DNA of 21,320 nucleotides from a virus. The translations under genes were made by a program, and so were the position numbers. The DNA lies in IMG/VR virus record IMGVR_UViG_3300023179_000585, positions 1 through 21,320 of that record, one strand, 5' to 3'. Of the stretch, positions 1-21,320 are shown in pieces; position 1 is the stretch's first letter; the number at the start of each line of letters is the position of its first letter. The notes beneath the pieces are model-generated. The model was not told where the DNA came from. It worked only from the letters and a program-made list of their open reading frames with translations, and made no database searches.

Positions 1-222
1 TGCTGTATTAGCGTTACTAGTATTTACTGCATATGATGCAGAAGTAGCAATTGATGCTGTTGCTGCGTACGAAGCACTAACTGTAGGATCGCCTATGAAT
101 ACTACTGAATTAACAAAATTAGCATTAAAATCTCTTAATATTGCAGGCGTAATTTGTCCTGAATTATTATTAGGAAAATCTGATGTGTTTTGATTTAATA
201 TATCACTGCGACTGTACGGCAT
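1..222 (-). CDS. Tail fibre protein, N-terminal part (runs off the left edge)
   Basis: This reading frame starts at an ATG at 220-222 and is open to base 1, so only the first 74 residues are seen. The protein begins MPYSRSDILNQNTSDF, followed by a segment rich in N, F and V and then an alanine/serine/threonine repeat (TVSASYAATASIATSASYAV). The A-S-Y-A type repeat is the same kind as in the fibre gene at 13605-14567, and such repeats are common in the shafts of phage tail fibres. From this I infer a tail fibre or receptor-binding protein anchored by its N-terminus. It follows the two small Cys-rich genes by 11 bases and probably shares their transcript. The C-terminal receptor-binding part is outside the window, so host range cannot be judged. 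Confidence 0.7.
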   Translation of the reverse strand, partial: MPYSRSDILNQNTSDFPNNNSGQITPAILRDFNANFVNSVVFIGDPTVSASYAATASIATSASYAVNTSNANTA

Positions 223-5779: not shown

Positions 5780-6257
5780 ATTTTTTTGTTTTTTGTTGTG
5801 ATGACCAAATTGTTGATGCTGATATTGTTGTTGCTTTGTGTAATGATTGTATTGAATGTCCTTCGTCTAAATAAACACGTAATAAATGACTATCAAACCA
5901 GTTAAATTCATCTAATGCTTGATTTGTTAACTGAACCATTGTTTCAAACGCACTATCTGCTGCATAATCATATGAATCTGCTGGTAGTTCGTATAAATCA
6001 TCATCTAATGGTAGACTTGGTTTTGAGCGTTTTAAACCGTTTAAGTAAATTGACCTTAACATTTTATATAGGTAAAATAAATTAACATCTTCTTTAAACA
6101 TTATCTTATTTATGTCTTTTAATTCCATCATTTTAAGATATAATTCTTGAACCAATTCTTCAGCGTTATCTTTGTTATTAGTAAAATTATAGCTGACTTG
6201 AGATAACCAGGTATTATGTTTGCGATATGTGTGTTCTACTAATTCGGAATTAGTCAT
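5748..6257 (-). CDS. Sigma-70-like transcription factor
   Basis: A 169-residue protein with the layout of a small sigma factor. Residues 8-75 resemble region 2: HTYRKHNTWLSQVSYNF, NAEELVQELYLKMMEL (the D/E-A-E-E-L-V-Q-E-x-x-L block) and FYLYKMLRSIYLNGLKR. An acidic linker (85-105) follows. Residues 120-162 (FDSHLLRVYLDEGHSIQSLH, then KATTISASTIWSSQQKTKKY) read as a region-4 helix-turn-helix that would contact the -35 element. Phages use such factors to direct host RNA polymerase to late promoters. Here it sits second in the operon, before packaging genes, after the zinc-finger gene (8-base overlap). An alternative is a sigma-derived repressor or activator. Sequence similarity to classical sigma factors is moderate. 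Confidence 0.75.
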   Translation of the reverse strand: MTNSELVEHTYRKHNTWLSQVSYNFTNNKDNAEELVQELYLKMMELKDINKIMFKEDVNLFYLYKMLRSIYLNGLKRSKPSLPLDDDLYELPADSYDYAADSAFETMVQLTNQALDEFNWFDSHLLRVYLDEGHSIQSLHKATTISASTIWSSQQKTKKYVREYIKKNM

Positions 6258-6920: not shown

Positions 6921-6946
6921 AAAAAAGCCCGTCATTGCTGACGGGC
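6921..6946 (-). terminator. Intrinsic (rho-independent) terminator
   Basis: On the minus strand GCCCGTC, loop AGCAAT and GACGGGC form a perfect 7-bp GC-rich stem, followed at once by six T. It lies 38 bases after the stop of the last gene of the right-hand block (6985-7134), so it ends the portal-to-small-membrane-protein transcript. On the plus strand the stem is preceded by the A run and has no T run after it, so it works in one direction only. Confidence 0.9.
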
Positions 6947-6984: not shown

Positions 6985-7134
6985 TTATTTAGCTGAATCT
7001 AATTTTTGTTCAGCTACAACTGGTGTTGATACGTCACAGTTACATTTTTTGCCAAATGCTGCATTGAATAATACAACTACAACTAACGCAACTAACGCAG
7101 TTTTACCTAATTCTTTTAACAATTCTTTGTTCAT
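6985..7134 (-). CDS. Very small single-pass membrane protein (49 aa)
   Basis: The frame starts at ATG 7132-7134 and ends at TAA 6985-6987. The protein begins MNKELLKELGKTALVALVVV and continues VLFNAAFGKKCNCDVST. One transmembrane helix spans about residues 12-28, preceded by a basic amphipathic stretch. After it come a CNC motif and a short hydrophilic tail ending QKLDSAK. The CNC directly after the helix would lie at the membrane surface. Its ATG overlaps the stop of the upstream membrane gene (ATGA), and it is the last gene before the terminator. Size, topology and pairing with another membrane gene make a lysis role (holin or spanin-like helper) possible, but no lysin gene is nearby to support it. 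Confidence 0.65.
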   Translation of the reverse strand: MNKELLKELGKTALVALVVVVLFNAAFGKKCNCDVSTPVVAEQKLDSAK

Positions 7135-7304
7135 TTTTTAACTTTTATTTTGTAATAAATTTGTGTCAACAACCAACCAATTGACGCTATGTAAAATAGT
7201 CCCGTCAATACTGGATTTAACATTTGAAACACTGAATTTAACAGGCTCAAACATGTCGTTACTGCTCCCACAGTATTAAGTTCTGATGTGTTCAATTTAT
7301 CCAT
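7131..7304 (-). CDS. Small membrane protein, holin candidate (57 aa)
   Basis: The frame starts at ATG 7302-7304 and ends at TGA 7131-7133. The product begins MDKLNTSELNTVGAVTTCLS. Residues 14-26 and 32-50 (LNPVLTGLFYIASIGWLLTQ) are hydrophobic, and the C-terminus is basic (IYYKIKVKK), a layout seen in small phage holins. It starts directly after the gp10-like gene at 7305 with no spacer and overlaps the next membrane gene by four bases (ATGA). Holins form membrane lesions that time host lysis. Without an adjacent endolysin this is an inference from size and topology only. Confidence 0.6.
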   Translation of the reverse strand: MDKLNTSELNTVGAVTTCLSLLNSVFQMLNPVLTGLFYIASIGWLLTQIYYKIKVKK

Positions 7305-7646
7305 TTATATTATTACGTCTGCATTTCCACCTAAATCAAGTAATGCTTGATTAACAGCATCATCCACAAATCCTGTTCCAGTTTCTCTATCGTAACCATT
7401 TACGTACTTAGTGTATTCAACGCCTTTAACAGCATAATCACCACCGCCATTTGGTCTTACACTAATACTGTTTTCCATTGTTCCAGTATCATTGTGTCCA
7501 AATAGTTCTGAATTATCAATGATGTTTTGTTTGATTTCGTCTGCTAAATCTTTACTATCAGCAATAACAAGCGTTTCCTTAGGCTTACGACCTAATTCAG
7601 CATACTTATTTAGTTTATCCTGATATGACTTTAATGCGTTAAACAT
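7305..7646 (-). CDS. Small structural protein, possibly gp10-like neck or tail protein
   Basis: A 113-residue protein. The N-terminal half is helical (MFNALKSYQDKLNKYAELGR). The rest holds LADEIKQNIIDNSELFGHND (about 34-53), TGTMENSISVRP (54-65) and VEYTKYVNGYDRETGTGFVD (76-95). An N-terminal helix, a T-G-x-x-x-N-S-I strand, a Y-x-x-Y-V-x-x-G-x-x turn and a final helix (DDAVNQALLDL) is the order of HK97 gp10-like neck proteins, although the usual aromatic and proline insert is missing. It is one base-overlapped (TAATG) with the HAD gene. If correct, it is the second gp10-like protein in the window, the other being at 18496-18951. The call is tentative. Confidence 0.5.
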   Translation of the reverse strand: MFNALKSYQDKLNKYAELGRKPKETLVIADSKDLADEIKQNIIDNSELFGHNDTGTMENSISVRPNGGGDYAVKGVEYTKYVNGYDRETGTGFVDDAVNQALLDLGGNADVII

Positions 7647-7999
7647 TAGAATTTTATTGCTTGTACGTTTGGTAAATATTTTTTGATCTTATCAATTTGT
7701 TCTTGATTATTATCGTAATGTCTTTTAACACCAGGTATAGTAGCTAATTTTTTATATTTGTCTTGCCCGTTTGTAAAATAGATTTTACTTACAGGAATAC
7801 CACTTTTTTTAACCTGATTTTCAATGAATGTTCTGTTATTATCATTTAATGCTGTAACAATAATAATTTCCCATCCTTCATTAATTAGTTGTAATGCTTT
7901 ACCTTTACCTTTAAACGTGCTGAAGGTATCGTTATAATCAAAACTAGCAATTGGTTTAGCTAGCTTAATCATGAATTTTTTAATACTATTACTTAACAT
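7646..7999 (-). CDS. HAD-fold protein with a changed catalytic motif
   Basis: A 117-residue protein with the HAD order. Motif I lies at FDYNDT (residues 20-25), where the usual DxDxT is D21-Y-N23-D-T25. Motif II is IIIVTA (45-50, Thr49); a Lys-rich motif III region is KIYFTNGQDKYKK (72-84); and a motif IV-like HYDNN (94-98, Asp96) follows. Many phages encode similar small HAD proteins with an IVTAR...IYFTxGxxK...HYDD pattern, thought to act on nucleotides or nucleic-acid ends. Asn in place of the second Asp should weaken classic phosphatase chemistry. Start overlaps the stop of the helical gene upstream by one base (TAATG). A later ATG (residue 10) is an alternative start. The exact substrate cannot be read from sequence. 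Confidence 0.75.
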   Translation of the reverse strand: MLSNSIKKFMIKLAKPIASFDYNDTFSTFKGKGKALQLINEGWEIIIVTALNDNNRTFIENQVKKSGIPVSKIYFTNGQDKYKKLATIPGVKRHYDNNQEQIDKIKKYLPNVQAIKF

Positions 8000-8364
8000 T
8001 ATTTTAGTGTTAATAGGTACAATGTTTCGCCTAATAATTGTGCAATCTCATCTAATTGATTTTGAATCCAGCTTTCTTGTGGTGCTGTTTTTCTTTCTTC
8101 TTGTAACCAATCATAACAATTTTTGTAATAAGCAATTGTGTCTGCTGTTGATGTCCAATCTGGTGTTTCATGTACATCATATCCTTTTAATCTACCAAAT
8201 ATACCAGCATATGATTCACTTAAACCATCTAATAATTCTAATATTTCATCATAAAAGTTATTTAATGCTTTATGTTCAGCAAGACTAGTTGTTTGGTGAT
8301 GCCATACAATAGCTTGTTGTTTTGCTGAATTAAAATAAGATACAATTTCTACTATACTTGCCAT
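7999..8364 (-). CDS. Helical DUF5856 / ferritin-like protein
   Basis: A 121-residue, all-helical protein. The block QQAIVWHHQTTSLAEHKALN followed by NFYDEILELLDGLSESYAG (about residues 16-54) matches what I remember of DUF5856, a phage family whose H-W/H-x-Q-T-x-S-x-A-x-H-K-A-L-x-x-Y-Y-D pattern resembles Dps/ferritin-like four-helix proteins. Conserved His22 and His31, Asp39 and Glu40 would suit metal binding, but this is inference. The C-terminal half (TIAYYKNCYDWLQEERKTAP and on) completes the helical bundle. It follows the prohead protease by three bases and overlaps the HAD gene by one. No enzymatic role is established. Confidence 0.7.
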   Translation of the reverse strand: MASIVEIVSYFNSAKQQAIVWHHQTTSLAEHKALNNFYDEILELLDGLSESYAGIFGRLKGYDVHETPDWTSTADTIAYYKNCYDWLQEERKTAPQESWIQNQLDEIAQLLGETLYLLTLK

Positions 8365-8367: not shown

Positions 8368-9459
8368 TTATTCTTTTATTCCTAACATTGCAGGATGTAT
8401 ATAATTTTTTTCTTTCTTTTTACCATTACCAAATTGACCAGCGTATGATGAACCAACACTTACTGCTGTTTCACCATTAAATAATCCTAATTCTTTTAAT
8501 TTAGCTGCGGACCATCTATTGGCAGCGTCCCCTCCCCATAATAGGTAAGAGATAGTGCCGCATGCAGTATTGTCTTTTGGATTATAAAATTCGACAGCTC
8601 GTGAAGTGTAAGCGTACATGCGCTTGATGGTTTGTACACTAATATTTCTTCCGTTAGCCAACTGTTGTGCCCTGATCTTACCGACTTCTGTGGCACATTT
8701 ATTATTAACCTTTGCATTTAAGTCTATTCCTTTTTGTGCGTTATTTTTAACTACGTCTGGATAATCATTATATGTTTCCATTTCAACACGTTGACCTGCT
8801 TTTAGTCTATTATCTTTTTTAATAATACCTTTCATTGTAGCTAATAATTCTTCAGCATACTCGCTATCAAAAATATCAATTAAATCAGATAAAGCCACTA
8901 AATGCGCTTGCTTTGACGCTTCCACTAAATTATGTCCAAATAATCCTTCTAGGCTGAATCCTTTAACTACGCCGTTTTTAACGTAGTCTTCCCAAATTGT
9001 TGGATTATTAACTTTCATCATTACCATCCATGTTCCTTTAGGATATGATAAACCGTATGCGTTTGATTTATCATTTTTTGAGTCTACAACTAACCATGAT
9101 TCAACAACACTTAAATCATCAATTGATTCTGCATGTTCTAATGTTGTATCGTTATTATGTTGACGTTGCATATATAATTGTGCTGCTTTTTCAATTACAG
9201 CCTCATCAAATTGAATATCGTATTCTTCACCTGTTTGTTCGTCTAAACGAGGAATTAATTTATTTGGAATTAATACTGGGCCTAATAAAATGCGTTTTTC
9301 AGTATCAGCGGTAGCTAATTCAATTTTAAGTTGTTTGGATAAAGTAATCCAATTTGCCTCAATAGCTGGGCTTTCAACTAATGAAATAGCAAATACACCC
9401 GCGTCCATATCCTCTTCGTCAATGAACATTTTATATACTTTTTTCTTAATGTCTGCCAT
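8368..9459 (-). CDS. Prohead (capsid maturation) serine protease, XkdF/S78 type, with extra C-terminal domain
   Basis: A 363-residue protein. Residues 18-172 match XkdF-like Peptidase S78: AISLVESPAIEANWITL (24-40), LLGPVLIPNKLIPR (58-71), the catalytic-type His109 in TLEHAES, Ser121 in VVESWLV, and VVKGFSLEGLFG (164-175). Such proteases cut scaffold and capsid proteins as the procapsid matures. Residues 230-326 form a second domain, with NDYPDVVKNNAQKGIDLNAK, IRAQQLANGRNISVQTIKRM and ISYLLWGGDAANRWS. This R-A-x-x-x-x-N-G ... K-R-M-x-x-Y ... LWGGD pattern is one I recall fused to other phage proteases. Its role is unknown. Unusually, it lies after the tape-measure gene, not beside the portal. 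The leader is pure A/T. Confidence 0.88.
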   Translation of the reverse strand: MADIKKKVYKMFIDEEDMDAGVFAISLVESPAIEANWITLSKQLKIELATADTEKRILLGPVLIPNKLIPRLDEQTGEEYDIQFDEAVIEKAAQLYMQRQHNNDTTLEHAESIDDLSVVESWLVVDSKNDKSNAYGLSYPKGTWMVMMKVNNPTIWEDYVKNGVVKGFSLEGLFGHNLVEASKQAHLVALSDLIDIFDSEYAEELLATMKGIIKKDNRLKAGQRVEMETYNDYPDVVKNNAQKGIDLNAKVNNKCATEVGKIRAQQLANGRNISVQTIKRMYAYTSRAVEFYNPKDNTACGTISYLLWGGDAANRWSAAKLKELGLFNGETAVSVGSSYAGQFGNGKKKEKNYIHPAMLGIKE

Positions 9460-9489
9460 AATATTTTATTATATTGTTATAACACAAAA

Positions 9490-11697
9490 TTAACCTCCTA
9501 GTCGTGCCATTGTGCGTAATCTTCTTTGTAATTGCATTTCTGTTGTAATATCGTTACCTACCACGTATGCTTTAATTGGTTGCATAGTTGAATTATTAGC
9601 ATTAATAGCACCTGCTACGGTACCTGCTATTACACCTGTTTGAGCATTTGATGCACCAATTTGAGGTGCGCCTACTGATCCACCTGCTGAAAATGCTGGA
9701 GTTGATGCTCCACCACTTGCACCACTACTAGATGATTTTGCTGCTCCACTAGCTGCTTGATCAATTGCTTGAATTTGCAATGCTGTATTTGTAGCAATAA
9801 CAGCTGTTTGAGCTATTCCACCTGCTACTGTTGCAATCATACCACCTATAGCAGCAGCTTTTGCAGCACTACCTGCTGCTACCATTGCCAATCCAACAGG
9901 GGCTGTTAATGGGTTTGAAGATAATGCACCTCCTTCTATCATTGTTGCTGTTGCTACTGCAGCTGATTTAGCGTATGAAGCATATGCTGCTCTTGCTCTT
10001 AAAATAACATCAGCAAGTGCTACTGCTGATTGAATATAAACAGCAATTTTAGCTAATAATACTTGTTCTTCTGATGCATCTTTTTGTAAACCTGAAATAT
10101 AATTAAATACTGCTGATAAACCATCTCCATATTGTTTATATGAATTAAGACGAATATCTAATAATTCTTTTTCTGAAGCAGCAGCTTGATTACGTAATTC
10201 TCTTAAAGCATTTATTCTATTAATTTCATCTTGATAAGCAGTATCAAGCATTAATTTACCTTCTTCAGCAGCCGCTTTATCAATTTCACCAGATTTTTTA
10301 CGATACTCTATTTCATCTATAAGCTTTGCTTCATACTGTTTTTTAAGATCTGCTCTTTGTGATTCAAATAATATATTAGCTTCTTCATATCTTTTTGTAG
10401 CAGCATCAACTATAATTTTATTTATAGTTTGTTGATATGTTATTTCATTTACTATTTGATCTTGTTGATATGCTTCTAATAAACGTTGTATTTCTTTAGA
10501 ATCTTTACCAACAGCATTAAGAAAATCTTTACCTCCTGCTAATGCTTTATCTAATTTTTGTTTATCTGCATCACTTAATTGCTTATTAAGCATTAAAGTT
10601 GCTTCATAATCTGCTTTTCTTACAGCATCTAATTCACTATATAAATTTTTAGTTATATCTTTTTGCTTACCAGCATTAGTAGACTGAGTAGTAATGAATG
10701 TTGCTTGTAATTTAACTAAATCAGCTTCTAATTGTACCGTATCTTTACCATATTTTTTATTTAATGCTATTTTATCTTCTAAAGCTTTCTTTTGTGCATC
10801 ATATGCTATTTGGGCAAATTTAACTTCAATATCTAATTTTTCTTGTTCTGTAGTAGCTATTGCTAATGCTAATGCTTTAGCTTTTTCTATTCTAGCATCA
10901 TCTAATTTATTTAAAGCATCAGTACGTTTAACGGCTTCATCATATGCTTTATCAGCAGCTTCTTTTTGATCTTTTAAATTCTTTTTCTGAGTAGCAGTTT
11001 GTTTAGCATATCCTTTATCAAAGTTATCTGTAAATTGATTAAACGCTACTTTAGTTTTATCCCAACTACCTTTAATTTGTTCATATCCTTCATTAGCTAA
11101 TTTCCAATCAAATGTAAATAAGCCTTTTAATATTTTAGCTGCGCCAACACCTACTTCTTTAATTAATGTGAATAATGAAACAAATGCGCCAAATATATTT
11201 TTAGTTCCTGTAATAAGATAAGGTAATGCTTTTAATGCTAATTCTAAAACAATATCTAAAAATGGTTGCATTCCTTCAACAATACCACCTAATATTTTTT
11301 CAAAAGCAATTAATATTGGTTCAAGTTTTTTTAATGAACCATCGGTTTTAGCAAATGCTGTGACTAATACACCTAATAAACCAACTATTATACCAATACC
11401 AGTAGCTTTTAATGCGGCACCAAATGATTGAGTAGATACTTTTAATGTATTTAATCCTTTACCTAATGCACCTAACGGACCTGGAGCTGATGCTAATGTA
11501 TCAACAAAATCAGATGTTGCACCTTTAGCACTTTTAATAGAATCCTCCATATCACTAATCCTTCTATTAATAGGGCCAAAATTTTCAGAATCAGCAGGCA
11601 ATGTCTTTAAGAGTTTTTTTAACTCTTTTAAGTTGGCTATGGAAGGAGCCATATTATCTATGACCTTGAGGTCTACTACTACGGTTTCATCAGCCAT
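9490..11697 (-). CDS. Tail tape-measure protein
   Basis: At 735 residues this is the second-longest protein in the window. It is alanine- and lysine-rich and mostly helical, with long coiled-coil stretches (about 220-530: repeats such as AKALALAIATTEQEKLDI and YEANILFESQRADLKKQYEA). Hydrophobic segments lie at about 98-116 (TGIGIIVGLLGVLVTAFA) and 148-185, and a glycine/alanine-rich hydrophobic block at about 590-690. This mix is typical of tape-measure proteins, which set tail length and pass through the tail tube. At about 1.5 angstrom per residue the tail would be near 110 nm, an estimate only. It starts inside the 53-aa gene's end. In most siphophages the gene comes before the tail-tip genes; here it comes after the fibres. 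Confidence 0.85.
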   Translation of the reverse strand: MADETVVVDLKVIDNMAPSIANLKELKKLLKTLPADSENFGPINRRISDMEDSIKSAKGATSDFVDTLASAPGPLGALGKGLNTLKVSTQSFGAALKATGIGIIVGLLGVLVTAFAKTDGSLKKLEPILIAFEKILGGIVEGMQPFLDIVLELALKALPYLITGTKNIFGAFVSLFTLIKEVGVGAAKILKGLFTFDWKLANEGYEQIKGSWDKTKVAFNQFTDNFDKGYAKQTATQKKNLKDQKEAADKAYDEAVKRTDALNKLDDARIEKAKALALAIATTEQEKLDIEVKFAQIAYDAQKKALEDKIALNKKYGKDTVQLEADLVKLQATFITTQSTNAGKQKDITKNLYSELDAVRKADYEATLMLNKQLSDADKQKLDKALAGGKDFLNAVGKDSKEIQRLLEAYQQDQIVNEITYQQTINKIIVDAATKRYEEANILFESQRADLKKQYEAKLIDEIEYRKKSGEIDKAAAEEGKLMLDTAYQDEINRINALRELRNQAAASEKELLDIRLNSYKQYGDGLSAVFNYISGLQKDASEEQVLLAKIAVYIQSAVALADVILRARAAYASYAKSAAVATATMIEGGALSSNPLTAPVGLAMVAAGSAAKAAAIGGMIATVAGGIAQTAVIATNTALQIQAIDQAASGAAKSSSSGASGGASTPAFSAGGSVGAPQIGASNAQTGVIAGTVAGAINANNSTMQPIKAYVVGNDITTEMQLQRRLRTMARLGG

Positions 11698-11840
11698 GTC
11701 TTAAATTTTTTAATTCGTTCTGTTAATGTTGTTGGTTTTTTAAACCTACCTCTAGCAATTTCAATTACTGGAGTATTGTATTTTATTGGCAACTGTCTCA
11801 TCATTGTAACAATGCTCTCGATGTTTATGTTTTGTGTCAT
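11679..11840 (-). CDS. Very small basic protein before the tape measure (53 aa)
   Basis: The frame starts at ATG 11838-11840 and ends at TAG 11679-11681, overlapping the tape-measure start by 19 bases. The protein begins MTQNINIESIVTMMRQLPIK and continues YNTPVIEIARGRFKKPTTLT, ending ERIKKFKTWLMKP. It is basic and probably helical. Tail-assembly chaperones usually lie directly before the tape measure and often involve a frameshift. This gene holds that position but is far shorter than the usual chaperones, so I do not claim that identity. I see no slippery heptamer. Confidence 0.55.
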   Translation of the reverse strand: MTQNINIESIVTMMRQLPIKYNTPVIEIARGRFKKPTTLTERIKKFKTWLMKP

Positions 11841-11851
11841 ATGTGTTTATT

Positions 11852-12736
11852 TTATAATGCGCATGTTCCTCCACAGTTAGTACCTGCTGTTGCTGAATTA
11901 TCTAAATCAACAGTATAAGATGGACCTGTTGCAGTATCATATCTAACATAATAAGCGTATCCATCACCATTATTATAATAATATCCAGTTGTTAGCGTTA
12001 CTGAACCTGTTGTTCTTGCAACTAATCCCTCATCATATGGTGTGCAAGGAAAACAGTTATATTGATCTACAACATAATAATTATAAGAACCTGTTGGTAT
12101 TGGAGGGGCGCCTGGTGTATATGATGAAGATACTGAAATTGAATATACTGAACCCGATGTAGCTATAAATGAACTACTTACAATTGAACCTGAATTTGAT
12201 GTTGCTCCTGTAAAGAATATAGTACCATTTTTACTAGCTGTAACGTACATTGCTGAACCTGTAGGCCAAGGGAATGTTGTTGGTTGTGAATTAAATGCTG
12301 AGAATGTTACTGCTTGACTTGCCGTCATAGTAAAATTACCCATACTTGATGTAAAATATCCACTACTTGTTCCATTTACAATTAAGTTTAAATCAGTATT
12401 AACATAAACTCCACTTGAACTATATTCGCTTAAACTCCAACTTACAGATGCTGTATTTGGTACTACAGGTATTGAACCTGTAACTAAAAATACAATATCA
12501 TTATTACATAATTCACAACTACCTGATCCATTATTTAAATTAAATTGTAAAAAGGAATAGGATTGTGATGGAATTGATACAGTAGCTGTACTACCAACAT
12601 TAGGTAAATAAGCAGGAGAACCAGCTAATACTGGATAATATGTTAAACTAGATGCTGAAGCAAATGTTACTACATAATAGGGTCCACTATTAATTCCTTC
12701 TGATTGTAATGTTAATTGATATTGTATATTTGGCAT
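11852..12736 (-). CDS. Tail-associated beta-rich protein, probably part of the fibre/adhesin set
   Basis: A 294-residue protein rich in Ser, Thr, Tyr, Gly and Val with few charges, typical of extracellular phage adhesins. It begins MPNIQYQLTLQSEGINSGPY and has beta-strand-like repeats throughout (for example SVSWSLSEYSSSGVYVNTDL). Three Cys clusters stand out: CELC near residue 75, NCFPC near 228, and CGGTC at the very end. They could form disulphides or metal sites after assembly. It follows the lectin-like gene with a one-base overlap (TAATG) and is 11 bases before the 53-aa gene. The family is not recognised. Its place among fibre genes suggests a role in host contact. Confidence 0.65.
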   Translation of the reverse strand: MPNIQYQLTLQSEGINSGPYYVVTFASASSLTYYPVLAGSPAYLPNVGSTATVSIPSQSYSFLQFNLNNGSGSCELCNNDIVFLVTGSIPVVPNTASVSWSLSEYSSSGVYVNTDLNLIVNGTSSGYFTSSMGNFTMTASQAVTFSAFNSQPTTFPWPTGSAMYVTASKNGTIFFTGATSNSGSIVSSSFIATSGSVYSISVSSSYTPGAPPIPTGSYNYYVVDQYNCFPCTPYDEGLVARTTGSVTLTTGYYYNNGDGYAYYVRYDTATGPSYTVDLDNSATAGTNCGGTCAL

Positions 12737-13605
12737 TATAATTCTCTATAAATAAAATAATTAAATACATTGTTAATCTCAGTAGGTGTAAGTACTTTAT
12801 TATAAATTGCTATTGCTTGCATATCCCCTACATAAGTATGTCCTAAAAAAGTTAAACCTGATCCTGTTAATGCATTATTAGCTATAGGATATCCTGGAGG
12901 ATAAGTTCCTGTCATAGAAGAAGTTACTGTACTTGTGTATGGATTTTCTTTATAATATTGAACTACTTTGTTATTAGGTAAATAAGATGGAGAAACTGAA
13001 TAGCATTCTTTAGTATTTATAGAAATGCCCCAAGCACCTAAATTATTAAGAGCAGCAGTAGATGCTACAATATGACCACCAGTAGATCCTGTTGGATTTG
13101 TTTTTACATAATTTTGTCTTAAAAAAAGATCATATGGAGAATAACGTTGTAATGCTTCGTATTTATATATAGTATCATCTCCTATTCTTAAAGCTGTACC
13201 AATATCATCGGGTTTTGCTACAATAACAACAGTCCAATCAGTATTATTTAGATAAGATCCGCTACATAAAGGTGCTGAAGTATATCCACTTGAAATTGTT
13301 CCAAAAGCATCAGCTAAACTCCCACTTACTGTATATCTACTACTTCCACCAAATATTAATGCTGGTCTCCAAGGAGAATCATAAGATATTTGAGATAATG
13401 AATTTGTTACATAAGTTATACTACCTGTTATAGTACCATGATATCCATTACCACTTAAATCAAACCAAGTAGTTTGATTAGAAGCAGAAATTGAAGAAGT
13501 AAACCAAGCATCATAATAAGCTAATAAACTAGCTGTTGGTAACGAAATATATTGTTTCGGTATTCTTTTTTTTGCTGAATAAAAATTTACTGGTGTTGAT
13601 ATCAT
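12736..13605 (-). CDS. Lectin-like (concanavalin/LamG fold) tail protein
   Basis: A 289-residue protein. After a short N-terminal anchor (MISTPVNFYSAKKRIPKQYI) it shows the LamG/concanavalin-like order: LLAYYDAWF, TTWFDLSGNGYHGTITGS (about 44-61), RPALIFGGSSRYTVSGS, DWTVVIVAKPDD (123-134), then a later GDMQAIAIYNKVLTPTEINN (260-279). The D-x-S-G-N-x-Y-H-G-T motif and the final YNKxLTxxEI motif are both hallmarks of this fold in phage and bacterial surface proteins. The fold usually binds glycans, so host-surface recognition is the inferred role. It starts with a one-base overlap with the repeat-fibre gene and overlaps the next gene by one base. Confidence 0.8.
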   Translation of the reverse strand: MISTPVNFYSAKKRIPKQYISLPTASLLAYYDAWFTSSISASNQTTWFDLSGNGYHGTITGSITYVTNSLSQISYDSPWRPALIFGGSSRYTVSGSLADAFGTISSGYTSAPLCSGSYLNNTDWTVVIVAKPDDIGTALRIGDDTIYKYEALQRYSPYDLFLRQNYVKTNPTGSTGGHIVASTAALNNLGAWGISINTKECYSVSPSYLPNNKVVQYYKENPYTSTVTSSMTGTYPPGYPIANNALTGSGLTFLGHTYVGDMQAIAIYNKVLTPTEINNVFNYFIYREL

Positions 13606-14567
13606 TATACAATAAAATTATAGTTGGCTACTGCATTTAGTGATGTACCATTAAATGAAACAAATGAAATAACATCTACAGCGCTTGCTGAGTTAAATGG
13701 AATATATTGTGATCCACTTGGAAAAGTAATATTATTAGTAAAAGTTACATTACCTAATGCTCCTGATGTTGGTTGTTTAACTTGTAATAAACCTGTTTGT
13801 CCTCTTTGTATATTACTAATTGCTACATGGGTTGTTGTTGAATTTGATAACTGTAAACTAAATAATTGTCCTGTAGATAAATCTATAGAAGCTGTATTGC
13901 TAGGTCCTCCAGCAAAATTAGTTACTATAGTAGCTAAACTACCAGAATAAACTTGATTACCAACAAATGTATTACTACCTGTTGTAGCAAACACAGACGA
14001 TGCTGTTCCATTTAATAAAATAGAATTTGCTGCTAATGAAGCATATGATGCTGAAGTTGCATTTAATGCATAACTAGCTGAAGTAGCGTTTACTGCATAA
14101 CTAGCTGATGTAGCATTTAATGCGTAAGACGCTGATGTACTATTATTTGAATAAGATGCTGATGTGCTATTGTTTGAATAAGATGCTGATACAGCAAATG
14201 ATGCTGTTCCTAATAAACTACCAGTTGCACCCTGTTTTAATGTTAAACTACCTGATATTATTGTTGTCTGTAGAGTTGATGCACCAGCAAATTGATTAAT
14301 ATTACCACTGTATATATTTACATTACCACCACTAAAATCTAAGTCGCCTGTTTTAACTTCTAATCCATTAGTAATTGAAGTAGATCCTGTTACACCAAAA
14401 CTTCCTGTTACTTGAACAGAATTTAAACCATTTGATGATATACGCATATTATTGCCTGCTCCATCTTGAAATTGAGTCATTGTTCCAGACACAATACTTG
14501 TATTTGTTGATAAATGAATTACACCTCCGTAGCTTGAACTTATGTATAATCCTGTTAATGCTGCCAT
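13605..14567 (-). CDS. Tail fibre protein with five 9-residue repeats
   Basis: A 320-residue Ser/Thr/Asn/Ala-rich protein with almost no charge. The N-terminal part (MAALTGLYISSSYGGVIHLS) and GSLLGTASFAVSAS (about 116-129) lead into five repeats of the type YxxNxTSAS (residues 130-174: two YSNNSTSAS, then YALNATSAS, YAVNATSAS, YALNATSAS). The C-terminal part (PSGSQYIPFNSASAVDVISF) looks like a fibre tip or trimerisation domain. Low-complexity repeats of this kind probably form a beta-helical or triple-stranded shaft. The partial fibre at 1-222 has similar ASYA repeats. The gene begins 22 bases after the 875-aa tail gene and ends in a one-base overlap with the lectin-like gene. Confidence 0.8.
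   Translation of the reverse strand: MAALTGLYISSSYGGVIHLSTNTSIVSGTMTQFQDGAGNNMRISSNGLNSVQVTGSFGVTGSTSITNGLEVKTGDLDFSGGNVNIYSGNINQFAGASTLQTTIISGSLTLKQGATGSLLGTASFAVSASYSNNSTSASYSNNSTSASYALNATSASYAVNATSASYALNATSASYASLAANSILLNGTASSVFATTGSNTFVGNQVYSGSLATIVTNFAGGPSNTASIDLSTGQLFSLQLSNSTTTHVAISNIQRGQTGLLQVKQPTSGALGNVTFTNNITFPSGSQYIPFNSASAVDVISFVSFNGTSLNAVANYNFIV
14042..14180 (-). repeat. Five tandem 27-bp units inside the fibre gene
   Basis: The DNA repeats about every 27 bases (on the plus strand AGATGCTGATGTGCTATTG and near copies such as TAGCTGATGTAGCATTTAA), giving the 9-residue YxxNxTSAS units. The first two protein units are identical, the last three nearly so. Such arrays can change length by recombination or slippage. 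Confidence 0.8.
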
Positions 14568-14589
14568 ATTTTTATATTTTTATATTTTA

Positions 14590-17217
14590 TTACCCACAGT
14601 TCCATAACTGCGAAGTTGCTTCCCATTGTGTATTTGTTTGATCCCATTGAGTACATGTAACTAACGATCCAGTATAAGTAAATGCACAAGGATCACTTGA
14701 TGGTGCCCATGATCCACTTAATATACTTGATATAGTATCTGGAATAATTGGTCCTAACATTTGAATATTACATTCACCTGTAGTTAAATTATAGTCGTTA
14801 ATTGCTCTTAAGTGGTAATAGTTACCTCTAAATTCAGCTATATCGTTTAATTCTAAATCAAAATAATCAGCTAAACCAATTACGGCACTAGCATCAACTA
14901 AACGTGTTCTTGGATTATATAATAATGCTAAATAAGTAGACCAATAAGTACTTACTAATGATCCTGTTGGTGTTGTACCCCATACTGCTTGTTCATTGTT
15001 GTAAAGTAATGATTTAGAATTTAATTGTGGGTATATTGATGATGTACCATTTAGAGAGCCTGTTGAATAAACATCAAAATAAGGATATTGTGTTTGTTTG
15101 TTTGATGCTACAACAGCTTTAGTACTATCGTAATAACCTTGAATCCAATAAGGAGAAACAGTAACTAATCCATTGTAAAATAGTAAACGTGGTAATACTC
15201 TTGCTGGTTCATATTTGTCATTAGATATATAATAAGGTATCCACATTGGATTACCACTACCTGAAGCACTACCTGTTGGAGGTGTTGAACAATTACCTTG
15301 TAATGTCCAACTTATATTACTACCAGCTAATGATACTGTTCCTGTTCTAGCACAAATCCAAGCATTTGGTGCGGCTGGAGTCATACTTTGTGTAGTTGGA
15401 ACACCAGCACAACTTGTATAGTAAGCCGCTGCACCACCACTTTCACCACCAAAATTAATTTGGTAAGTTGAACAACCAGTAACTGTATTAATAGAACCTG
15501 TATAAACTGAACCTGGTACTTGACCTAATGGCCCTGATGCTAATACATCACTAACTACATCTAATGTACCTTGTGAATAAAACGAACCTGAATCATAATA
15601 ATTTGATTCTCCATACACTCTGTTATTAGTACGTTTAAATAATGTTTCAATATAATCGGTATCATCAGCATCACTAAATCTAACTTTCTTATATCCTAAT
15701 TGATTAGCTGGAGTAAATGTAATTTTATCTTTAATATTGATGTACTTATTAAAGTCTTTAACTTGTCCTTGCTTATACCAATTATTAAATGTTTCAATAA
15801 TAAACTGATTTGGATTTTGTTTACTAGGATATATTATTAGATTAAATTTCTTTTGTACACTGCGTATAAAATCCATTACTTTAATTCCAGATGTACCATT
15901 AGGCATATTACTAGGAATATCCATCACTTGCTGATCACCGGCCTGTCGTACTCTGTTTATAGATAAAGCACATAAATTATTAGCATCAGGATTTAATTGT
16001 ACTGTAAAATTATTTGTACCATAAACTTGATAAATAATATAAATTCTATAAGTACCAGCGGGTAATGTTGCTGATATAACGGGAACACCTTTTAAATTAA
16101 ATGTTTCAGTAACAGTAATTGTTCTAGAATCTCGTATTGTAGTAATATATGTGTTAATTGGTCCAGCTAATGCTTGAGTATCTTGAACTAATCCAGTAGA
16201 ATCATTTACCCATGTAATATACCAAGCGGGCATACCACTACCTGCTGCTCCAGATGCACTTACTTTAAATGCTAAATCTAAAGTCATGTCTAAAGTAGTT
16301 CTTTGATCTACAGTGTATGTAGTATAAGATGCACTAAGAGCAAATTTATTATCATTATTATAAGATAATGAATTAAATAAGAAACTTGATGATACTGCTG
16401 CTGTTAAATTAATTGGAGTTGAACCAGATACGTTTGTTACTCTACCTGCTCCATATCCTTCAATATCAGGAAAAAATACAGGTGCCTGTAAATTATTATT
16501 ACAATTTAAATAAACATCATTTAAAAATGGTTCATTCCAAAACGATCCAGTATATGTGTAACCAAATTCATTAAATATAGCATCCCATACTTTTTTAATA
16601 CGAATTGCTGGTTTATAATCTTGAACTACTAATGCACTTGTATTGTCATCAATACCTTGAAAATCAATTTGTGAATAATAGATTTGTTGTCCATATTCAG
16701 CCATTGGATAAACTATATCTCCACTAAATAAATTTCGTTGCCAACTAGCACTAATATTATCGTATGAAGCTGTATGGTTATAAGCGCTTAAAGTGCTTAA
16801 ATCTGTTAGGAAAGACGATCTTGTGTCGATACTGAAGTTAGAGATAATACCGAATAGAGTTACCTCGTATGAGTCAACGAATTTGTTTTCAATTACGTTA
16901 ACTTTATTAAGTTGTAAATAACCATTAACTAAATAAAATGAATCAAAGTCAAGATATGCTTCGTTTACCTGATTAGTATTAAATATGTCTGGTTCCCAAA
17001 CACTAATATCATAATATTGCTCAAAATAAGCATTATTTTTTTTAGTACCTGGTAAAGTAATTTGTTGTGTGTATGTGCCTGGTATTTCACCTAAATCAAA
17101 TAAATCAAGTATATTGTTAGATACCTTAATATCTTCATCAGCAAATTGGTCTAATATAGTTCCAGTTAACTTATCAACCAGTTTACCTCTATATCCTTGT
17201 GTTGTTTGAACGCCCAT
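14590..17217 (-). CDS. Large tail-tip / baseplate hub-like protein
   Basis: An 875-residue protein. The N-terminal region (ILDLFDLGEIPGTYTQQITL, then PGTKKNNAYFEQYYDI, about 36-71) and YLVNGYLQLNKVNVIENKF with DSYEVTLFGIISNF (about 95-130) match a pattern I associate with large tail-tip proteins of Bacteroidota phages: LPxTKxNN, then xGYLQLxKV, then YExxLFG. The middle is beta-rich and Ser/Thr/Gly-rich with two Cys clusters. Near the end, YWSTYLALLYNPRTRLVDAS (about 765-785) and LELNDIAEFRGNYYHLRAIN (about 796-815), then DYNLTTGECNIQML, are also typical. It starts in a one-base overlap with the 417-aa gene. Tail hub or spike-like function is inferred from order and pattern; no lysozyme or peptidase motif is visible. 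Confidence 0.75.
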   Translation of the reverse strand: MGVQTTQGYRGKLVDKLTGTILDQFADEDIKVSNNILDLFDLGEIPGTYTQQITLPGTKKNNAYFEQYYDISVWEPDIFNTNQVNEAYLDFDSFYLVNGYLQLNKVNVIENKFVDSYEVTLFGIISNFSIDTRSSFLTDLSTLSAYNHTASYDNISASWQRNLFSGDIVYPMAEYGQQIYYSQIDFQGIDDNTSALVVQDYKPAIRIKKVWDAIFNEFGYTYTGSFWNEPFLNDVYLNCNNNLQAPVFFPDIEGYGAGRVTNVSGSTPINLTAAVSSSFLFNSLSYNNDNKFALSASYTTYTVDQRTTLDMTLDLAFKVSASGAAGSGMPAWYITWVNDSTGLVQDTQALAGPINTYITTIRDSRTITVTETFNLKGVPVISATLPAGTYRIYIIYQVYGTNNFTVQLNPDANNLCALSINRVRQAGDQQVMDIPSNMPNGTSGIKVMDFIRSVQKKFNLIIYPSKQNPNQFIIETFNNWYKQGQVKDFNKYINIKDKITFTPANQLGYKKVRFSDADDTDYIETLFKRTNNRVYGESNYYDSGSFYSQGTLDVVSDVLASGPLGQVPGSVYTGSINTVTGCSTYQINFGGESGGAAAYYTSCAGVPTTQSMTPAAPNAWICARTGTVSLAGSNISWTLQGNCSTPPTGSASGSGNPMWIPYYISNDKYEPARVLPRLLFYNGLVTVSPYWIQGYYDSTKAVVASNKQTQYPYFDVYSTGSLNGTSSIYPQLNSKSLLYNNEQAVWGTTPTGSLVSTYWSTYLALLYNPRTRLVDASAVIGLADYFDLELNDIAEFRGNYYHLRAINDYNLTTGECNIQMLGPIIPDTISSILSGSWAPSSDPCAFTYTGSLVTCTQWDQTNTQWEATSQLWNCG

Positions 17218-18470
17218 TACAATAATAGTTTATATGGTTGACCAATGTCAAATGATAATGTGTATTGAATTAATTTATTATTAACGCCTGTTTTAAATTG
17301 AAGGCTATTTGTTTTAATTGTAAGTGGTTTAACTAAATAACTTGTTTGATCATATAACCAATATATTTCATCTGAAACCATTAGTTGTTTCATTATTTCA
17401 TTATATCCATCTGATAACCAGTTTGTATTAACATCTAATACTTCAGTTGCATCTACAATATAACGTTGTTGTGCTGTTTGATATTGATTATAAGATAAGG
17501 TTTGTGATTCCCAAGTACCTAATTGAGGTTGATATAAGCGTTGATCTGTATTAAATGTATTATTATGGCGTTTATAGAAATTTAACCAATCTAATTGACC
17601 AAATCTATTTTTCCAGCAAATTCTTACTGGTGTATAATATTGTTCACATACAACTTCATAATTTAAAGTGCCATATGTGATACTTCCGCTTATAAATTTA
17701 ACTTGGTAATTAGTTAAAGCACCACTACCTGATGTAGTAGGTATAATACCATCTCCTGGGGCAGTACCAAAACTATAAACCATATCACTTGATGTAACAT
17801 CAGCATATATAGTAGTATAGACGCTATTAATTTTTGATCCATTATCATAACTAGCTGAATATACAATTGTACCAACAGTATTTCCATAAGTAGGATGTTG
17901 ATCACTTATTCCATACCAAAAACCAACACCTCTTTTTTGATTAAGACTATTATCAATTCTAGTTACATCTGTAATTAAAACTGACTGAGTAACACTAGGC
18001 ATATCAGTCATAAATGGAAAATAAGTATTTGAACCAGACATTGTTGTATTAATCTGGTTAGGAAATAAATTATATCCGTCATATGCCATAAACATTACTC
18101 CACCAGCAGAACAAGTAATTTGTGTTAATCCACCTGGTTGAGATACGTAAGTACTACCTGTAGCATACTGCCATCCAACTTCAACTTTATAATATTTTAT
18201 AACACTATCATTAGTGGCAGTTAAAGTAGTTAATGTCGAATTAATCATTTTACTAAAATCAAATATACCAGAACCAGATGGGTTTGGATATTTTCTAGCT
18301 GAGTAAATGTATGAACCTGATTGAGATGGAGTACCAGTCCACACATATAAATTAGCTGTATATTGAAATTCACTAGCAGTATATGCTTGTGTTGATTCTA
18401 ATACAGAAAACACAATTGGTGATTGTGCTGGTTGTATATCTCCTGGTTTTTGTACTACTGTTATTGACAT
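17217..18470 (-). CDS. Tail structural protein, probably distal-tail or baseplate type
   Basis: A 417-residue beta-rich protein with a fibronectin/Ig-like composition. It begins MSITVVQKPGDIQPAQSPIV; residues 34-50 (SEFQYTANLYVWTGTPS) and 100-115 look like strands of beta-sandwich domains. The block CWKNRFGQLDWLNFYKRHNN (about 285-304) fits an N-R-F-G-x-x-D/E-x-x-x-F motif recurrent in Bacteroidota phage tail proteins. The C-terminus (NNKLIQYTLSFDIGQPYKLL) closes with a strand. It begins just after the gp10-like gene and is coupled (TAATG) to the 875-aa gene. I assign a tail-structural role from position and motifs, and cannot tell a distal-tail protein from a major tail protein by eye. Confidence 0.7.
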   Translation of the reverse strand: MSITVVQKPGDIQPAQSPIVFSVLESTQAYTASEFQYTANLYVWTGTPSQSGSYIYSARKYPNPSGSGIFDFSKMINSTLTTLTATNDSVIKYYKVEVGWQYATGSTYVSQPGGLTQITCSAGGVMFMAYDGYNLFPNQINTTMSGSNTYFPFMTDMPSVTQSVLITDVTRIDNSLNQKRGVGFWYGISDQHPTYGNTVGTIVYSASYDNGSKINSVYTTIYADVTSSDMVYSFGTAPGDGIIPTTSGSGALTNYQVKFISGSITYGTLNYEVVCEQYYTPVRICWKNRFGQLDWLNFYKRHNNTFNTDQRLYQPQLGTWESQTLSYNQYQTAQQRYIVDATEVLDVNTNWLSDGYNEIMKQLMVSDEIYWLYDQTSYLVKPLTIKTNSLQFKTGVNNKLIQYTLSFDIGQPYKLLL

Positions 18471-18495
18471 GTTGTTATAACATTAAAATATGATT

Positions 18496-18951
18496 TTATG
18501 ATGCGGCTTTTAATCTAGCAACTACTGATTTAGTTACAGCCTTTTTTAATTCTTTTTTTAGTTGTTCCTTGCTTTGCTTAATAGCCATACTCATAAATGG
18601 CAATGGTTTAATTCCTTTTTTAGATATTGATCTACTAATTAAATAAGTTAGTGATTTAATACCCATCGGTTCACCATTTTTTGTCTTACCCACAATACCT
18701 TTCTCTCTAATCCATTTAGTAATAGGTGCTGGCGGTGGAAAACGTGCTCCTTTGCGTCGACCGCTCTGAACATATTTACCTTCCTCAGCAAATAAAAATA
18801 TAATTTTACCTTGGGAATTAACTGTGTAACGTATAGAATTGATTAAATTACCAGTAGCGTCTTTATTACTACGTCTTAAAATGGACTTAGCGTTTGTTAC
18901 AACTAGCTGAGCCCATTTCTTTTCTGCTTCTATAATGTTTTGATCTAGCAT
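18496..18951 (-). CDS. HK97 gp10-like neck / tail-completion protein
   Basis: A 151-residue basic protein. After an N-terminal helix (AEKKWAQLVVTNAKSILRRS) it has TGNLINSIRYTV (33-44), then EEGKYVQSGRRKGARFPPPA (56-75) and PITKWIREKGI (76-86), and a long C-terminal helix rich in Lys (about 110-148). The T-G-x-L-x-x-S-I strand, the Y-V-x-x-G turn with FPPP and W-I-x-x-K-G-I are typical of gp10-like neck proteins that join head and tail. It overlaps the upstream gene by seven bases and is 25 bases from the next gene, in the expected place between connector genes and tail genes. Confidence 0.8.
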   Translation of the reverse strand: MLDQNIIEAEKKWAQLVVTNAKSILRRSNKDATGNLINSIRYTVNSQGKIIFLFAEEGKYVQSGRRKGARFPPPAPITKWIREKGIVGKTKNGEPMGIKSLTYLISRSISKKGIKPLPFMSMAIKQSKEQLKKELKKAVTKSVVARLKAAS

Positions 18952-19490
18952 GTTGCCTCATTACCTGTTGCTTCTATATCACTAATATCAATTACACACA
19001 TATCTTGAGGATTACCTACTGCTATATTCATATCAGCAGCCCAACCCCACATATAACTGTCAAAACGTTGTTCGAATGGAGTACATAATGTACTACCAAT
19101 TACGTTATATGGATATGCTTGTGGATTTCTATAAACGTAAGATAAAACATCATTAATTGTCAATAATGTAGTATTCCAAACATCCTGACTATTATCAATA
19201 CCTTTCCAATCCTTATAAAATTCATTATAACCACCAACTGAATTCTGAGCAATATCATTTACTCTATCCATTACAAATAATGTTAAGTTATAATTCATCA
19301 TACCAGAATCAATCGTAACATTGTTAACTAATAAGTTAGCATATGGAAATTGTGGTTGTTTTTTCTGATCAATTCCGTATATGTCTCCTAAAGTAAAATA
19401 CTTAATGTTAGGGTGAGCCAAACAAACGTTATTAAAAAACGTTGTAACTGAATAAAATGTTTGTAGTGATTGTACTGCTCCTGTTGCCAT
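18945..19490 (-). CDS. Probable tail-terminator / tail-completion protein
   Basis: A 181-residue protein that starts MATGAVQSLQTFYSVTTFFN. The first helix is followed by FTLGDIYGIDQKKQPQFPYA (about 32-51), which holds a P-Q-F-P-Y-A-N-L-L strand, then NYNLTLFVMDRVND (66-79) and a helical region with VWNTTLLTINDVLSYVY. A strand of the type xFPxAxLxxxxxxxxxGxxxYxxxLFVMD, followed by a short helix and an N-terminal helix, is the order of tail-terminator-like proteins. Its place between the adaptor genes and the gp10-like gene also fits. Its start directly follows the 56-aa gene's stop (TAA-ATG). Confidence is moderate, as no sequence search could be made. Confidence 0.65.
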   Translation of the reverse strand: MATGAVQSLQTFYSVTTFFNNVCLAHPNIKYFTLGDIYGIDQKKQPQFPYANLLVNNVTIDSGMMNYNLTLFVMDRVNDIAQNSVGGYNEFYKDWKGIDNSQDVWNTTLLTINDVLSYVYRNPQAYPYNVIGSTLCTPFEQRFDSYMWGWAADMNIAVGNPQDMCVIDISDIEATGNEATC

Positions 19491-19661
19491 TTAAAAACGT
19501 TTATTTTTGAGTATTTTGTTTGACGCTAAATTAGTAAATTTGTTATTTTGGGCGTTTTTAACGTCCTTAAAACCGTTTTTAGCGGCCAAATACTGCGCTA
19601 ATTTAGTAATATTATCATCCTTAGGTCTATAACCTAGATATGTTTTGTTTAGATTACCCAT
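19491..19661 (-). CDS. Very small protein between connector genes (56 aa)
   Basis: The frame starts at ATG 19659-19661 and ends at TAA 19491-19493. The protein begins MGNLNKTYLGYRPKDDNITK and continues LAQYLAAKNGFKDVKNAQNN, ending KFTNLASNKILKNKRF. It is basic and Asn/Lys-rich, without hydrophobic segments. It overlaps the end of the adaptor gene by 13 bases, and its stop touches the next start. It fills what would otherwise be the only gap of more than 150 bases in the connector block. No family is recognised. A small assembly or structural role is likely from position. Confidence 0.6.
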   Translation of the reverse strand: MGNLNKTYLGYRPKDDNITKLAQYLAAKNGFKDVKNAQNNKFTNLASNKILKNKRF

Positions 19662-20164
19662 CCGTTTCTATATTGTTGTCCTTTATCTGGATAAACGTTA
19701 TCACTGAATCCTGTAGTTGCTGTGTATTGTGGATAAGTACTATTATGTGCAATTAAATAATTAACTAAACGTTCAGCATAGAACTGAGCTGTGCCTAATT
19801 CTTTTTGTAGTAAATAATCTACATCAACTTTACTTGGTGATGCGCCTTGTTCACCGTTTAAGTTTTTAGTAATACCTGTGTTATCAATCTGGTAAGCTAA
19901 AAATGGTAATGCTTCAACAAATGTATAGTGAACTAAACAATCAGTAATATAATCATCCATTAATGTTTTATACACACCCGTTACAGTACCTGCTGCAACC
20001 TGTGTTTGTAAATAACCATATAATACAGTACCTAGAGCAATCAAAATGTATTTGTCTTGTGCTGTTTTTACAAACGGGATTAATTTATCTGAATCTATAT
20101 CTCCACCGATTGGTGTTCTTTTGACTAAGTCATTTCTTGATATAAATAAAACGTTTAAACTCAT
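19649..20164 (-). CDS. Head-tail adaptor candidate (DUF6712-like)
   Basis: A 171-residue mostly helical protein, directly after the portal gene with a 20-base gap. It starts MSLNVLFISRNDLVKRTPIG, then GDIDSDKLIPFVKTAQDKYI (21-40), LIALGTVLYGYLQTQ (41-55), MDDYITDCLVHYTFVEALPF (69-88) and YLLQKELGTAQFYAERLVNY (116-135). Helical packing with an ends-first L-I-P-x-V-x-x-A-Q-x-x-x-I-x-x-x-L-G-x-x-L-Y motif is typical of small adaptor proteins that sit on the portal, and I believe it resembles DUF6712-type proteins of Bacteroidota phages. The C-terminal YPDKGQQYRNGWVI also fits. The exact family needs a profile search, so the name is tentative. Confidence 0.7.
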   Translation of the reverse strand: MSLNVLFISRNDLVKRTPIGGDIDSDKLIPFVKTAQDKYILIALGTVLYGYLQTQVAAGTVTGVYKTLMDDYITDCLVHYTFVEALPFLAYQIDNTGITKNLNGEQGASPSKVDVDYLLQKELGTAQFYAERLVNYLIAHNSTYPQYTATTGFSDNVYPDKGQQYRNGWVI

Positions 20165-20184
20165 TATCTTCTATTTTTAATTTT

Positions 20185-21320
20185 TTATGTTCCTTGTTCA
20201 CCTGTATTTTCTGGTCCTACAACATTACCAATTTCTTCATTAGGATTTGGAGCCATTGAACCATCACCTTCTGCTGGTGTTGCAACTGCATCAGGTACGT
20301 CATTTGGACTTTCAATCATTGCTTTTGCGTTAGCTGCACCTGCGTTATCCATTAATTCAGCTAAGAATCCAAATGGAATCAATGGAGCGAAGTATAATGA
20401 TTCACCATCTACTTCATTAAATTCAATTATACCTTGAATTGTTTTAACAATTTCTTCTTGGAATGGCTGAATAACTAATGCCAACATAATTTCATATGAT
20501 GTTTTTAATTCATCAGCGTTTGAACTAAATCCGCTTGCTGTTTTAATACCGAATAGCATTTGTGAGGTAATTCTATGTGCTAACATAATTTTACGAGATG
20601 ATTCTTCAGCTATAAAATCGTATTGTTGATGTAAGTTTTCTGGACGTAACATCTCAACAGTTGTTTTATATTCTGGATTATCATTAAATGATAAAATGAA
20701 TCTACCTGCGTTTGTAGTACCTGTAAATTTGTTTGCAATGCTATTTTCAACCATTGCTTGTTCTTCAACTGCTGGTACACCACCATTAAAGTTAATGATT
20801 GTACTAGGCATGAAGTTATTTAATATATTGTTCAAATGTAGGTTTGATACTTCTTCTTCTACAGCGCAATATTGAATTGCAGAATAATAATCAGGAATAC
20901 CATAATAAAATTTACCTGGAGCGTAACGCTTCATATAAATTACCTGTACATCATCTTCATATTGATTTTGACCAAATGCAGGAATGTATTTTGGTTTAAT
21001 ATTTTTATTTGTCCAATCAGCTGAATAATAAAATCCAGGTATAACACCTTGCTCATTTACTCTTTCAGCACGAATTGTATCTGCTGGTAAGTGATAGAAA
21101 TTAATTATTCTAGTTCTGTCTGCATTGAATACACATTGTATTGCTGCGTTACCAAATAATTTATAGTCAAATACTATTTTACGAATTTCATCTTCAGTAG
21201 TTAATGTATAAAGATACTCTTCTAAATCTAATCTATCTTTTGCTTTAACACCTTTACCATAAATTAAATCTGTTGTACCATCAATACATGCTTGATTGGT
21301 TGGAGATGTTTCATAACGCT
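20185..21320 (-). CDS. Portal protein (start lies beyond the right edge)
   Basis: The frame is open from the TAA at 20185-20187 to the last base of the window, so about 377 C-terminal residues are seen and the N-terminus is missing. An internal ATG at 20934 is not the true start. The visible portion has TSPTNQACIDGTTDLIYGKG near the edge, VFDYKLFGNAAIQCVFN, HLPADTIRAERVNEQG and YGIPDYYSAIQYC. The block RITSQMLFGIKTASGFSSNA followed by DELKTSYEIML is typical of PBSX-type portals; the C-terminus is acidic and low-complexity (NEEIGNVVGPENTGEQGT). The portal forms the 12-subunit ring at the capsid vertex, through which terminase packs DNA. It is the first gene of the right-hand transcript seen here. 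Confidence 0.9.
   Translation of the reverse strand, partial: RYETSPTNQACIDGTTDLIYGKGVKAKDRLDLEEYLYTLTTEDEIRKIVFDYKLFGNAAIQCVFNADRTRIINFYHLPADTIRAERVNEQGVIPGFYYSADWTNKNIKPKYIPAFGQNQYEDDVQVIYMKRYAPGKFYYGIPDYYSAIQYCAVEEEVSNLHLNNILNNFMPSTIINFNGGVPAVEEQAMVENSIANKFTGTTNAGRFILSFNDNPEYKTTVEMLRPENLHQQYDFIAEESSRKIMLAHRITSQMLFGIKTASGFSSNADELKTSYEIMLALVIQPFQEEIVKTIQGIIEFNEVDGESLYFAPLIPFGFLAELMDNAGAANAKAMIESPNDVPDAVATPAEGDGSMAPNPNEEIGNVVGPENTGEQGT

Follow-up and report, generated by a model that had tools for sequence, protein, structure and literature searches.

A group of uncultivated phages carries its virion genes in an uncommon order, with capsid and tail tube genes ahead of the portal gene and the protease gene last, and this order is confirmed here in many records. 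The window, by which we mean the whole stretch analysed, is a 21,320-base linear metagenomic virus record (IMG/VR IMGVR_UViG_3300023179_000585, positions 1–21,320), whose source is an uncultivated relative of Nonlabens phage P12024S; the group infects Bacteroidetes-type bacteria. Very probably the window covers some three quarters of a genome of ∼28–31 kb that is circularly permuted or circularly mapped, and this high confidence covers the map jointly with the explanation of apparent oddities by the cut edges. It does not extend to expression, where, judging from sequence, RNA hairpins around the tube gene may help to make the most abundant virion proteins in excess.

Genes of the window

Megablast of the window against known phages gave no match. 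All genes concerned lie on the minus strand, so the window is transcribed from right to left (Table 1). The initial annotation had read the order along transcription as portal, adaptors, tail tip, fibres, tape measure, protease and terminase, and within the window this reading holds: profiles confirm the portal, the adaptor candidate, the neck protein, the protease and the large terminase subunit (TerL), and the tape measure protein is recognized through relatives.

Table 1. Features of the window, listed in the direction of transcription
Feature	Position	Strand	Basis or remark
Portal protein	20185..21320 (ORF 21318-20185)	-	PHROG portal 1.1e-57; 5′ start lost at right edge
DUF6712 head-tail adaptor candidate	19649..20164	-	PF20459 1.4e-19
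Tail-terminator candidate	18945..19490	-	Label by position; PHROG unknown 6.6e-5
Neck/tail-completion protein	18496..18951	-	phrog_5 1.7e-7
Tail protein, 417 aa, possible distal tail protein	17217..18470	-	P12024S gp44 homologue
Putative tail-tip protein, 875 aa	14590..17217	-	phrog_38559 2.4e-15, 'unknown function'
Three fibre-like genes (320, 289, 294 aa)	11852..14567	-	Ser/Thr-rich repeats in translation
Tape measure protein, 735 aa	9490..11697	-	Relatives match PHROG tape-measure families
XkdF-type prohead protease with extra C-terminal domain	8368..9459	-	PF14550 2.9e-15
DUF5856 protein, 117-aa protein, HK97-gp10-like protein	7305..8364	-	Profiles; last just under Pfam cut-off
Two small membrane proteins, possible lysis genes	6985..7304	-	Translation only
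Terminator-like hairpin, end of late genes	6927..6946	-	8-bp stem, 6 G-C pairs, T6
Sigma-70-region-2-like protein	5748..6257	-	PF04542 2.9e-4, under cut-off; P12024S gp33 homologue, same place
Small terminase candidate	2756..3073	-	By position, directly before TerL in window and relatives
Large terminase subunit (TerL)	1555..2802	-	Terminase_3 PF04466 8.9e-23
Conserved gene after TerL (c237)	845..1558	-	P12024S gp38 homologue
Fibre gene cut at left edge	1..222	-	Map of relatives continues here with scaffold, capsid and tube genes

The Pfam Phage_portal model also hits the window portal, at 1.4e-8, which is under its curated cut-off; a full-length homologue (in relative L002) has 435 aa. The window tape measure protein has no direct profile match itself, and tblastn with it found nothing; in an alignment with its relatives, 7 of the 18 members match one PHROG tape-measure family and others match further ones. 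A profile search with the 417-aa tail protein gave no match, nor did a Pfam search with the small terminase candidate. Searched by sequence against the PDB, neither the tail-tip candidate nor the 417-aa protein, the tail-terminator candidate or the DUF6712 protein found a convincing counterpart. Tail-sheath profiles matched none of the window proteins tested, and several tail proteins have no profile identity.

The tail-tip and fibre labels are putative ones, suggested by position, length, repeats and the fibre-like C-terminal extensions found in relatives of the tail-tip candidate, one longer relative of which has the glycine-rich domain PF21722. A weak PHROG tail-fibre match (0.022) was obtained for the first of the three fibre-like genes only.

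The extra domain of the protease (window 8500–8820) matches stretches of proteins from other phages and archaeal viruses that are annotated as capsid, protease or portal, and a stand-alone protein similar to it was seen by eye near the protease in G017 (2737–3081). Genes for GIY-YIG and endonuclease-VII-like proteins are interspersed around the sigma-like gene and ahead of the terminase (window 3351–3858, 5246–5779 and 6250–6621).

Capsid and tail tube genes of relatives

Searches for relatives used the portal (51 loci), the protease (5), the terminase (10) and the newly identified capsid (591, of which 80 were kept). The portal of the nearest ones is up to 95% identical to that of the window, and their sequence runs past the window's right edge. 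In L002 (portal 95% identical) the genes before the portal encode a 257-aa scaffold candidate and proteins of 310, 181 and 123 aa; the capsid and tube genes lie at 4091–5023 and 5099–5644, separated from the portal by one small gene. PHROGs gives both of their families as 'unknown function' (phrog_11320 and phrog_19091).

An AlphaFold2 model of the 310-aa protein, built from 22 sequences (pLDDT 64.9, with 88 of 310 residues below pLDDT 50), had 353 Foldseek matches at E ≤ 0.001, the best (2.0e-11) to the P4 procapsid, and matched a phage capsid structure with Z up to 17.0 and an rmsd of 4.8 over 256 residues. We identify this L002 protein as the major capsid protein, with a predicted HK97 fold; the identity rests on the predicted fold because a PDB sequence search with the capsid profile found nothing. 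The model of the 181-aa protein (32 sequences, pLDDT 78.4) matched a phage tail core (Z 9.4, rmsd 4.0 over 127 residues) and the lambda tube protein V (8.9), with Hcp proteins ranking just after the latter; Foldseek alone gave no match at E ≤ 0.001 (best 4.0e-3). Its predicted tube fold points to the tail tube. The structure searches proposed with the initial annotation thus found both an HK97-fold protein and a tube, as predicted models and in relatives.

The set of head and tail genes is complete in the relatives, and the window simply stops within its portal gene, short of capsid and tube; its own copies of these two genes would lie just past the right edge, outside the record. The initial statement that no capsid or tube gene is visible remains true of the window, where neither capsid nor tail-tube profiles matched any protein tested; going by the relatives, which carry both genes immediately past the position of that edge, it does not hold for the genome. 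A capsid gene at this very place had been named beforehand as the finding that would reduce the observation to a simple module shift; the relatives have it there, and for them we reject the claim of a missing capsid.

The profile-negative window could also be read as an element truly without a capsid gene, such as a satellite, a tailocin or a gene-transfer remnant that uses the heads of another phage. We consider this extremely improbable, as portal, terminase and protease are all in the window and a complete head set with an HK97-fold protein adjoins the portal in relatives. Portal and large terminase are thus found in the window itself and the HK97-fold capsid in L002 only; as for the marks of a long-tailed phage, the tail-tube protein is found in relatives, as a predicted model, and the tape measure protein by way of relatives.

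Five of the six matches to the capsid in genome collections are contigs of Bacteroidota metagenome-assembled genomes. The sixth, a partial capsid gene next to a scaffold gene of the same family, is in a Woesearchaeota chromosome record (L134, 9342–11263), which we treat as a likely misjoin because the capsid gene runs into a stretch of N and archaeal-type genes follow; alternatively, the N stretch may be masking. The only cultured relatives of the capsid family found are the Nonlabens phages P12024S and P12024L (genus Inhavirus), whose capsid is annotated 'hypothetical protein'. The family belongs to a widespread uncultivated phage group, and naming it would improve annotation in one viral collection for at least 591 stretches that match it.

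Circular map and position of the terminase

Two relatives have overlapping ends: G004 (28,882 bp) by 275 bp at 97.5% identity, inside the terminase gene, and G013 (31,608 bp) by 161 bp at 99.4%. These overlaps give closed maps of ∼28.6 and ∼31.4 kb, and contigs with different break points yield the same circle. Its order is small terminase candidate, TerL, c237, fibres, scaffold candidate, major capsid protein, tail tube, small protein and portal, followed by adaptor, tail-terminator and neck candidates, two tail proteins, fibres, tape measure and protease; small genes and the sigma-like gene then lead back to the terminase, as seen in the window and relatives. A further relative of 30.3 kb, G018 (L155/L156), has ends that overlap by 102 bp.

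On the circle the terminase stands upstream of the head genes, as usual. That the terminase comes 'only later' was accordingly an artefact of the cut: terminase, c237, fibres, scaffold and capsid follow in succession on the circle, and the terminase looks late in the window because a circular map is read there from an arbitrary cut. We therefore reject its position as an oddity.

Gene order that remains unusual

Capsid and then tube stand upstream of the portal in all 57 records with 3.5 kb or more of sequence ahead of the portal; in all 93 records that contain both genes, the tube comes immediately after the capsid. The gene for the putative tail tip stands ahead of that for the tape measure in 33 of 33 records. 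The protease is the next gene after the tape measure in 30 of 31, where hits to the adjacent 'had' profile, itself overlapping with the protease family, also count as protease; the sole exception is the P12024S record, a linear one that starts with the protease. Many of the counted records were found via capsid or portal, by which the presence of genes, not their order, is partly selected, and the counts are not independent, since most records are fragments and some are near-identical. The claim of an unusual module order thus survives in part: capsid and tube before portal, putative tip before tape measure and protease last are genuine, while two of the three initial surprises came from the cut of the record.

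Typing of arrangements covered 114 records or loci, a set without L001 (part of the window), L134 (the likely misjoin), L084 and L038 (contigs already represented) and any locus superseded by its full record. Of the 114, 63 have the window type, 23 are P12024S-like, one (G018) is mixed and 27 have no assignable type. As the window is a single linear metagenomic record, its order might have arisen by an assembly error joining pieces of different phages. Its repetition in these separately assembled records makes such an error most unlikely, and we reject a chimeric assembly.

The P12024S-like order is terminase-c237-tail-tape measure-protease-scaffold-capsid-tube-portal-adaptor, so that the two types differ by the exchange of a tail-plus-protease block and a scaffold-capsid-tube-portal-adaptor block. 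Compared with P12024S, these two blocks have changed places, which leaves the protease stranded behind the tape measure. On a capsid tree of 66 rows (those of the 114 that were typed and have a capsid of at least 230 aa), the three arrangement states need two changes, the minimum possible, against 18.7 with shuffled labels, a contrast that near-identical rows favour. One rearrangement may explain the difference between the two types; the branch gathering the P12024S-like rows is weak (56/14), which makes a single rearrangement possible rather than proven. The order in G018 is intermediate, with the tail-terminator candidate near the adaptor, and tail, protease and capsid as in the P12024S-like order.

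Hairpins around the tube gene

Hairpins flanking the tube gene are a new observation here. Strict terminator-like hairpins were found in 28 of 46 gaps from the tube to the 123-aa gene, 20 of 22 from tube to portal and 17 of 66 from capsid to tube. One of 10 neck-to-tail gaps has such a hairpin, and the other listed classes of late-gene gaps have none (for example, 0/32 from adaptor to terminator candidate, 0/15 from tip to tape measure). Duplicate gap sequences and gaps outside 40–600 bases were left out, and shuffled gap sequences, in which base composition only is kept, gave at most 0.2 strict hairpins per class. With one mismatch allowed, a hairpin and U-tract follow the tube in 57 of 73 testable gaps, all in relatives and outside the window. 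In the nearest relatives G001, L051, L003 and L005 the hairpin after the tube is kept and the U-tract is missing, which counts against reading it as a terminator.

Folding-energy z-scores (from dinucleotide shuffles, with gaps containing N and classes of fewer than five members also left out) average −3.98 for capsid-tube gaps (64 gaps) and −3.72 after the tube (66 gaps). The other classes range from −2.1 to 0.0, and there are moderately structured gaps among them too: neck-to-tail (−2.09), u74-to-scaffold (−1.94) and adaptor (−1.83). In a MAFFT alignment of 19 near relatives, the after-tube hairpin has two-sided changes at 8 of 10 consensus pairs, a count made without a shuffled control. RNAalifold found no consensus for the capsid-tube gap, though single sequences fold strongly.

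The hairpin at the end of the late genes of the window comes from a scan that expects 0.8 such sites per shuffled region by chance. At the equivalent place G001 has a different perfect stem, and strict searches of this place in several other relatives found no hairpin.

We propose that the late genes would be read as one unit ending at the terminator-like hairpin at 6946–6927, in which scaffold, capsid and tube would form a high-copy cassette transcribed ahead of the low-copy genes. A hairpin or terminator behind the tube gene would reduce transcription of the genes that follow (portal, connectors, tip, tape measure and protease), whose products are needed in few copies. Late-gene order would then follow copy number, with mRNA levels dropping in steps from capsid to tube at the capsid-tube hairpin and from tube to portal and tail at the terminator behind the tube, and the rearranged, protease-last order would have been tolerated as the cassette stayed intact. 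We hold this proposal tentatively, at somewhat less than an even chance; if true, one promoter could give the required stoichiometry.

The same map could instead carry an order without function, the modules of a circular genome having been swapped by recombination and drifted, in which case the expression part falls. This is a serious contender, of a probability a little under one half. It agrees with there being only two main arrangements, few changes apart on the tree, and with the occurrence of hairpins in both, by which the hairpins do not explain the difference between them; it fits less well with capsid, tube and portal staying together in both arrangements and with the concentration of hairpins around the tube. 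The paired arrangements and the tube hairpins make the group well suited to a comparative study of whether virion-protein stoichiometry is set by gene order and terminators.

Comparison with known phages

In HK97- and lambda-like siphophages the usual order is portal-protease-capsid-connectors-tube-tape measure-tip, with the terminase before the head genes. The window group has the same parts (terminase, portal, protease, predicted HK97-fold capsid, tube, tape measure and tip) but arranges them as capsid-tube-portal-connectors-tip-tape measure-protease. Phage T7 has a terminator directly behind its major capsid gene 10; by analogy, the hairpin behind the tube in relatives of the window may act as a terminator directly behind the most abundant virion genes. 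Unlike in T7, the cassette would include the tail tube, and capsid and tube are separated by another hairpin. In phage T4, which has a contractile tail, the tail-tube gene 19 is directly upstream of the portal gene 20 and the capsid gene comes after the portal; the window group is similar in having the tube upstream of the portal and differs in that the capsid precedes it.

P12024S and P12024L are homologous to the window group in portal (33%), protease (37%) and capsid (31%), and also in tube, TerL and tape measure, and share with it the capsid-tube-portal run and the sigma-like gene before TerL. Unlike in the window group, their tail block comes after TerL and before protease and capsid, so the window does not have the Inhavirus gene order.

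Uncultivated marine genomes of Flavobacteriaceae EVG group 1 have been grouped with Persicivirga phages (PMC5332604). Uncultivated P12024 relatives are already known as a large group, with average lengths of ∼31–33 kb and conserved replication genes reported for a sub-clade (PMC7198788), and P12024-like viruses have also been reported elsewhere (PMC12893351 and PMC11515562). Such replication genes were not found in the window group. The portions of the literature covered, including PMC5332604, PMC7198788, PMC12893351, PMC11515562, PMC8776804 and PMC4362835, hold no discussion of this gene order that we could find.

Replication genes and other observations

The P12024S genome (35.7 kb) has primase, helicase and recombination genes. 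Eleven of its replication, recombination, lysis and neighbouring proteins had no significant match in the 28–31 kb window-arrangement records, and matches to them were found in G009, a P12024S-like record. Neither the ∼28.6- and ∼31.4-kb maps (G004 = L065/L066; G013 = L149/L150) nor window positions 1–8364 have recognizable replication enzymes. A scan of small proteins (84 of 189 listed) found three with DUF6291, one weakly matching Lin1244_N, and homing-type nucleases; the small DUF6291 gene of some relatives may be a replication initiator. One methyltransferase-domain match also appeared among the 84. Between the sigma-like gene and the terminase, glycosyltransferase- or acetyltransferase-like genes were seen by eye in G003 (L063 15747–18213) and G005 (L067 2726–4574).
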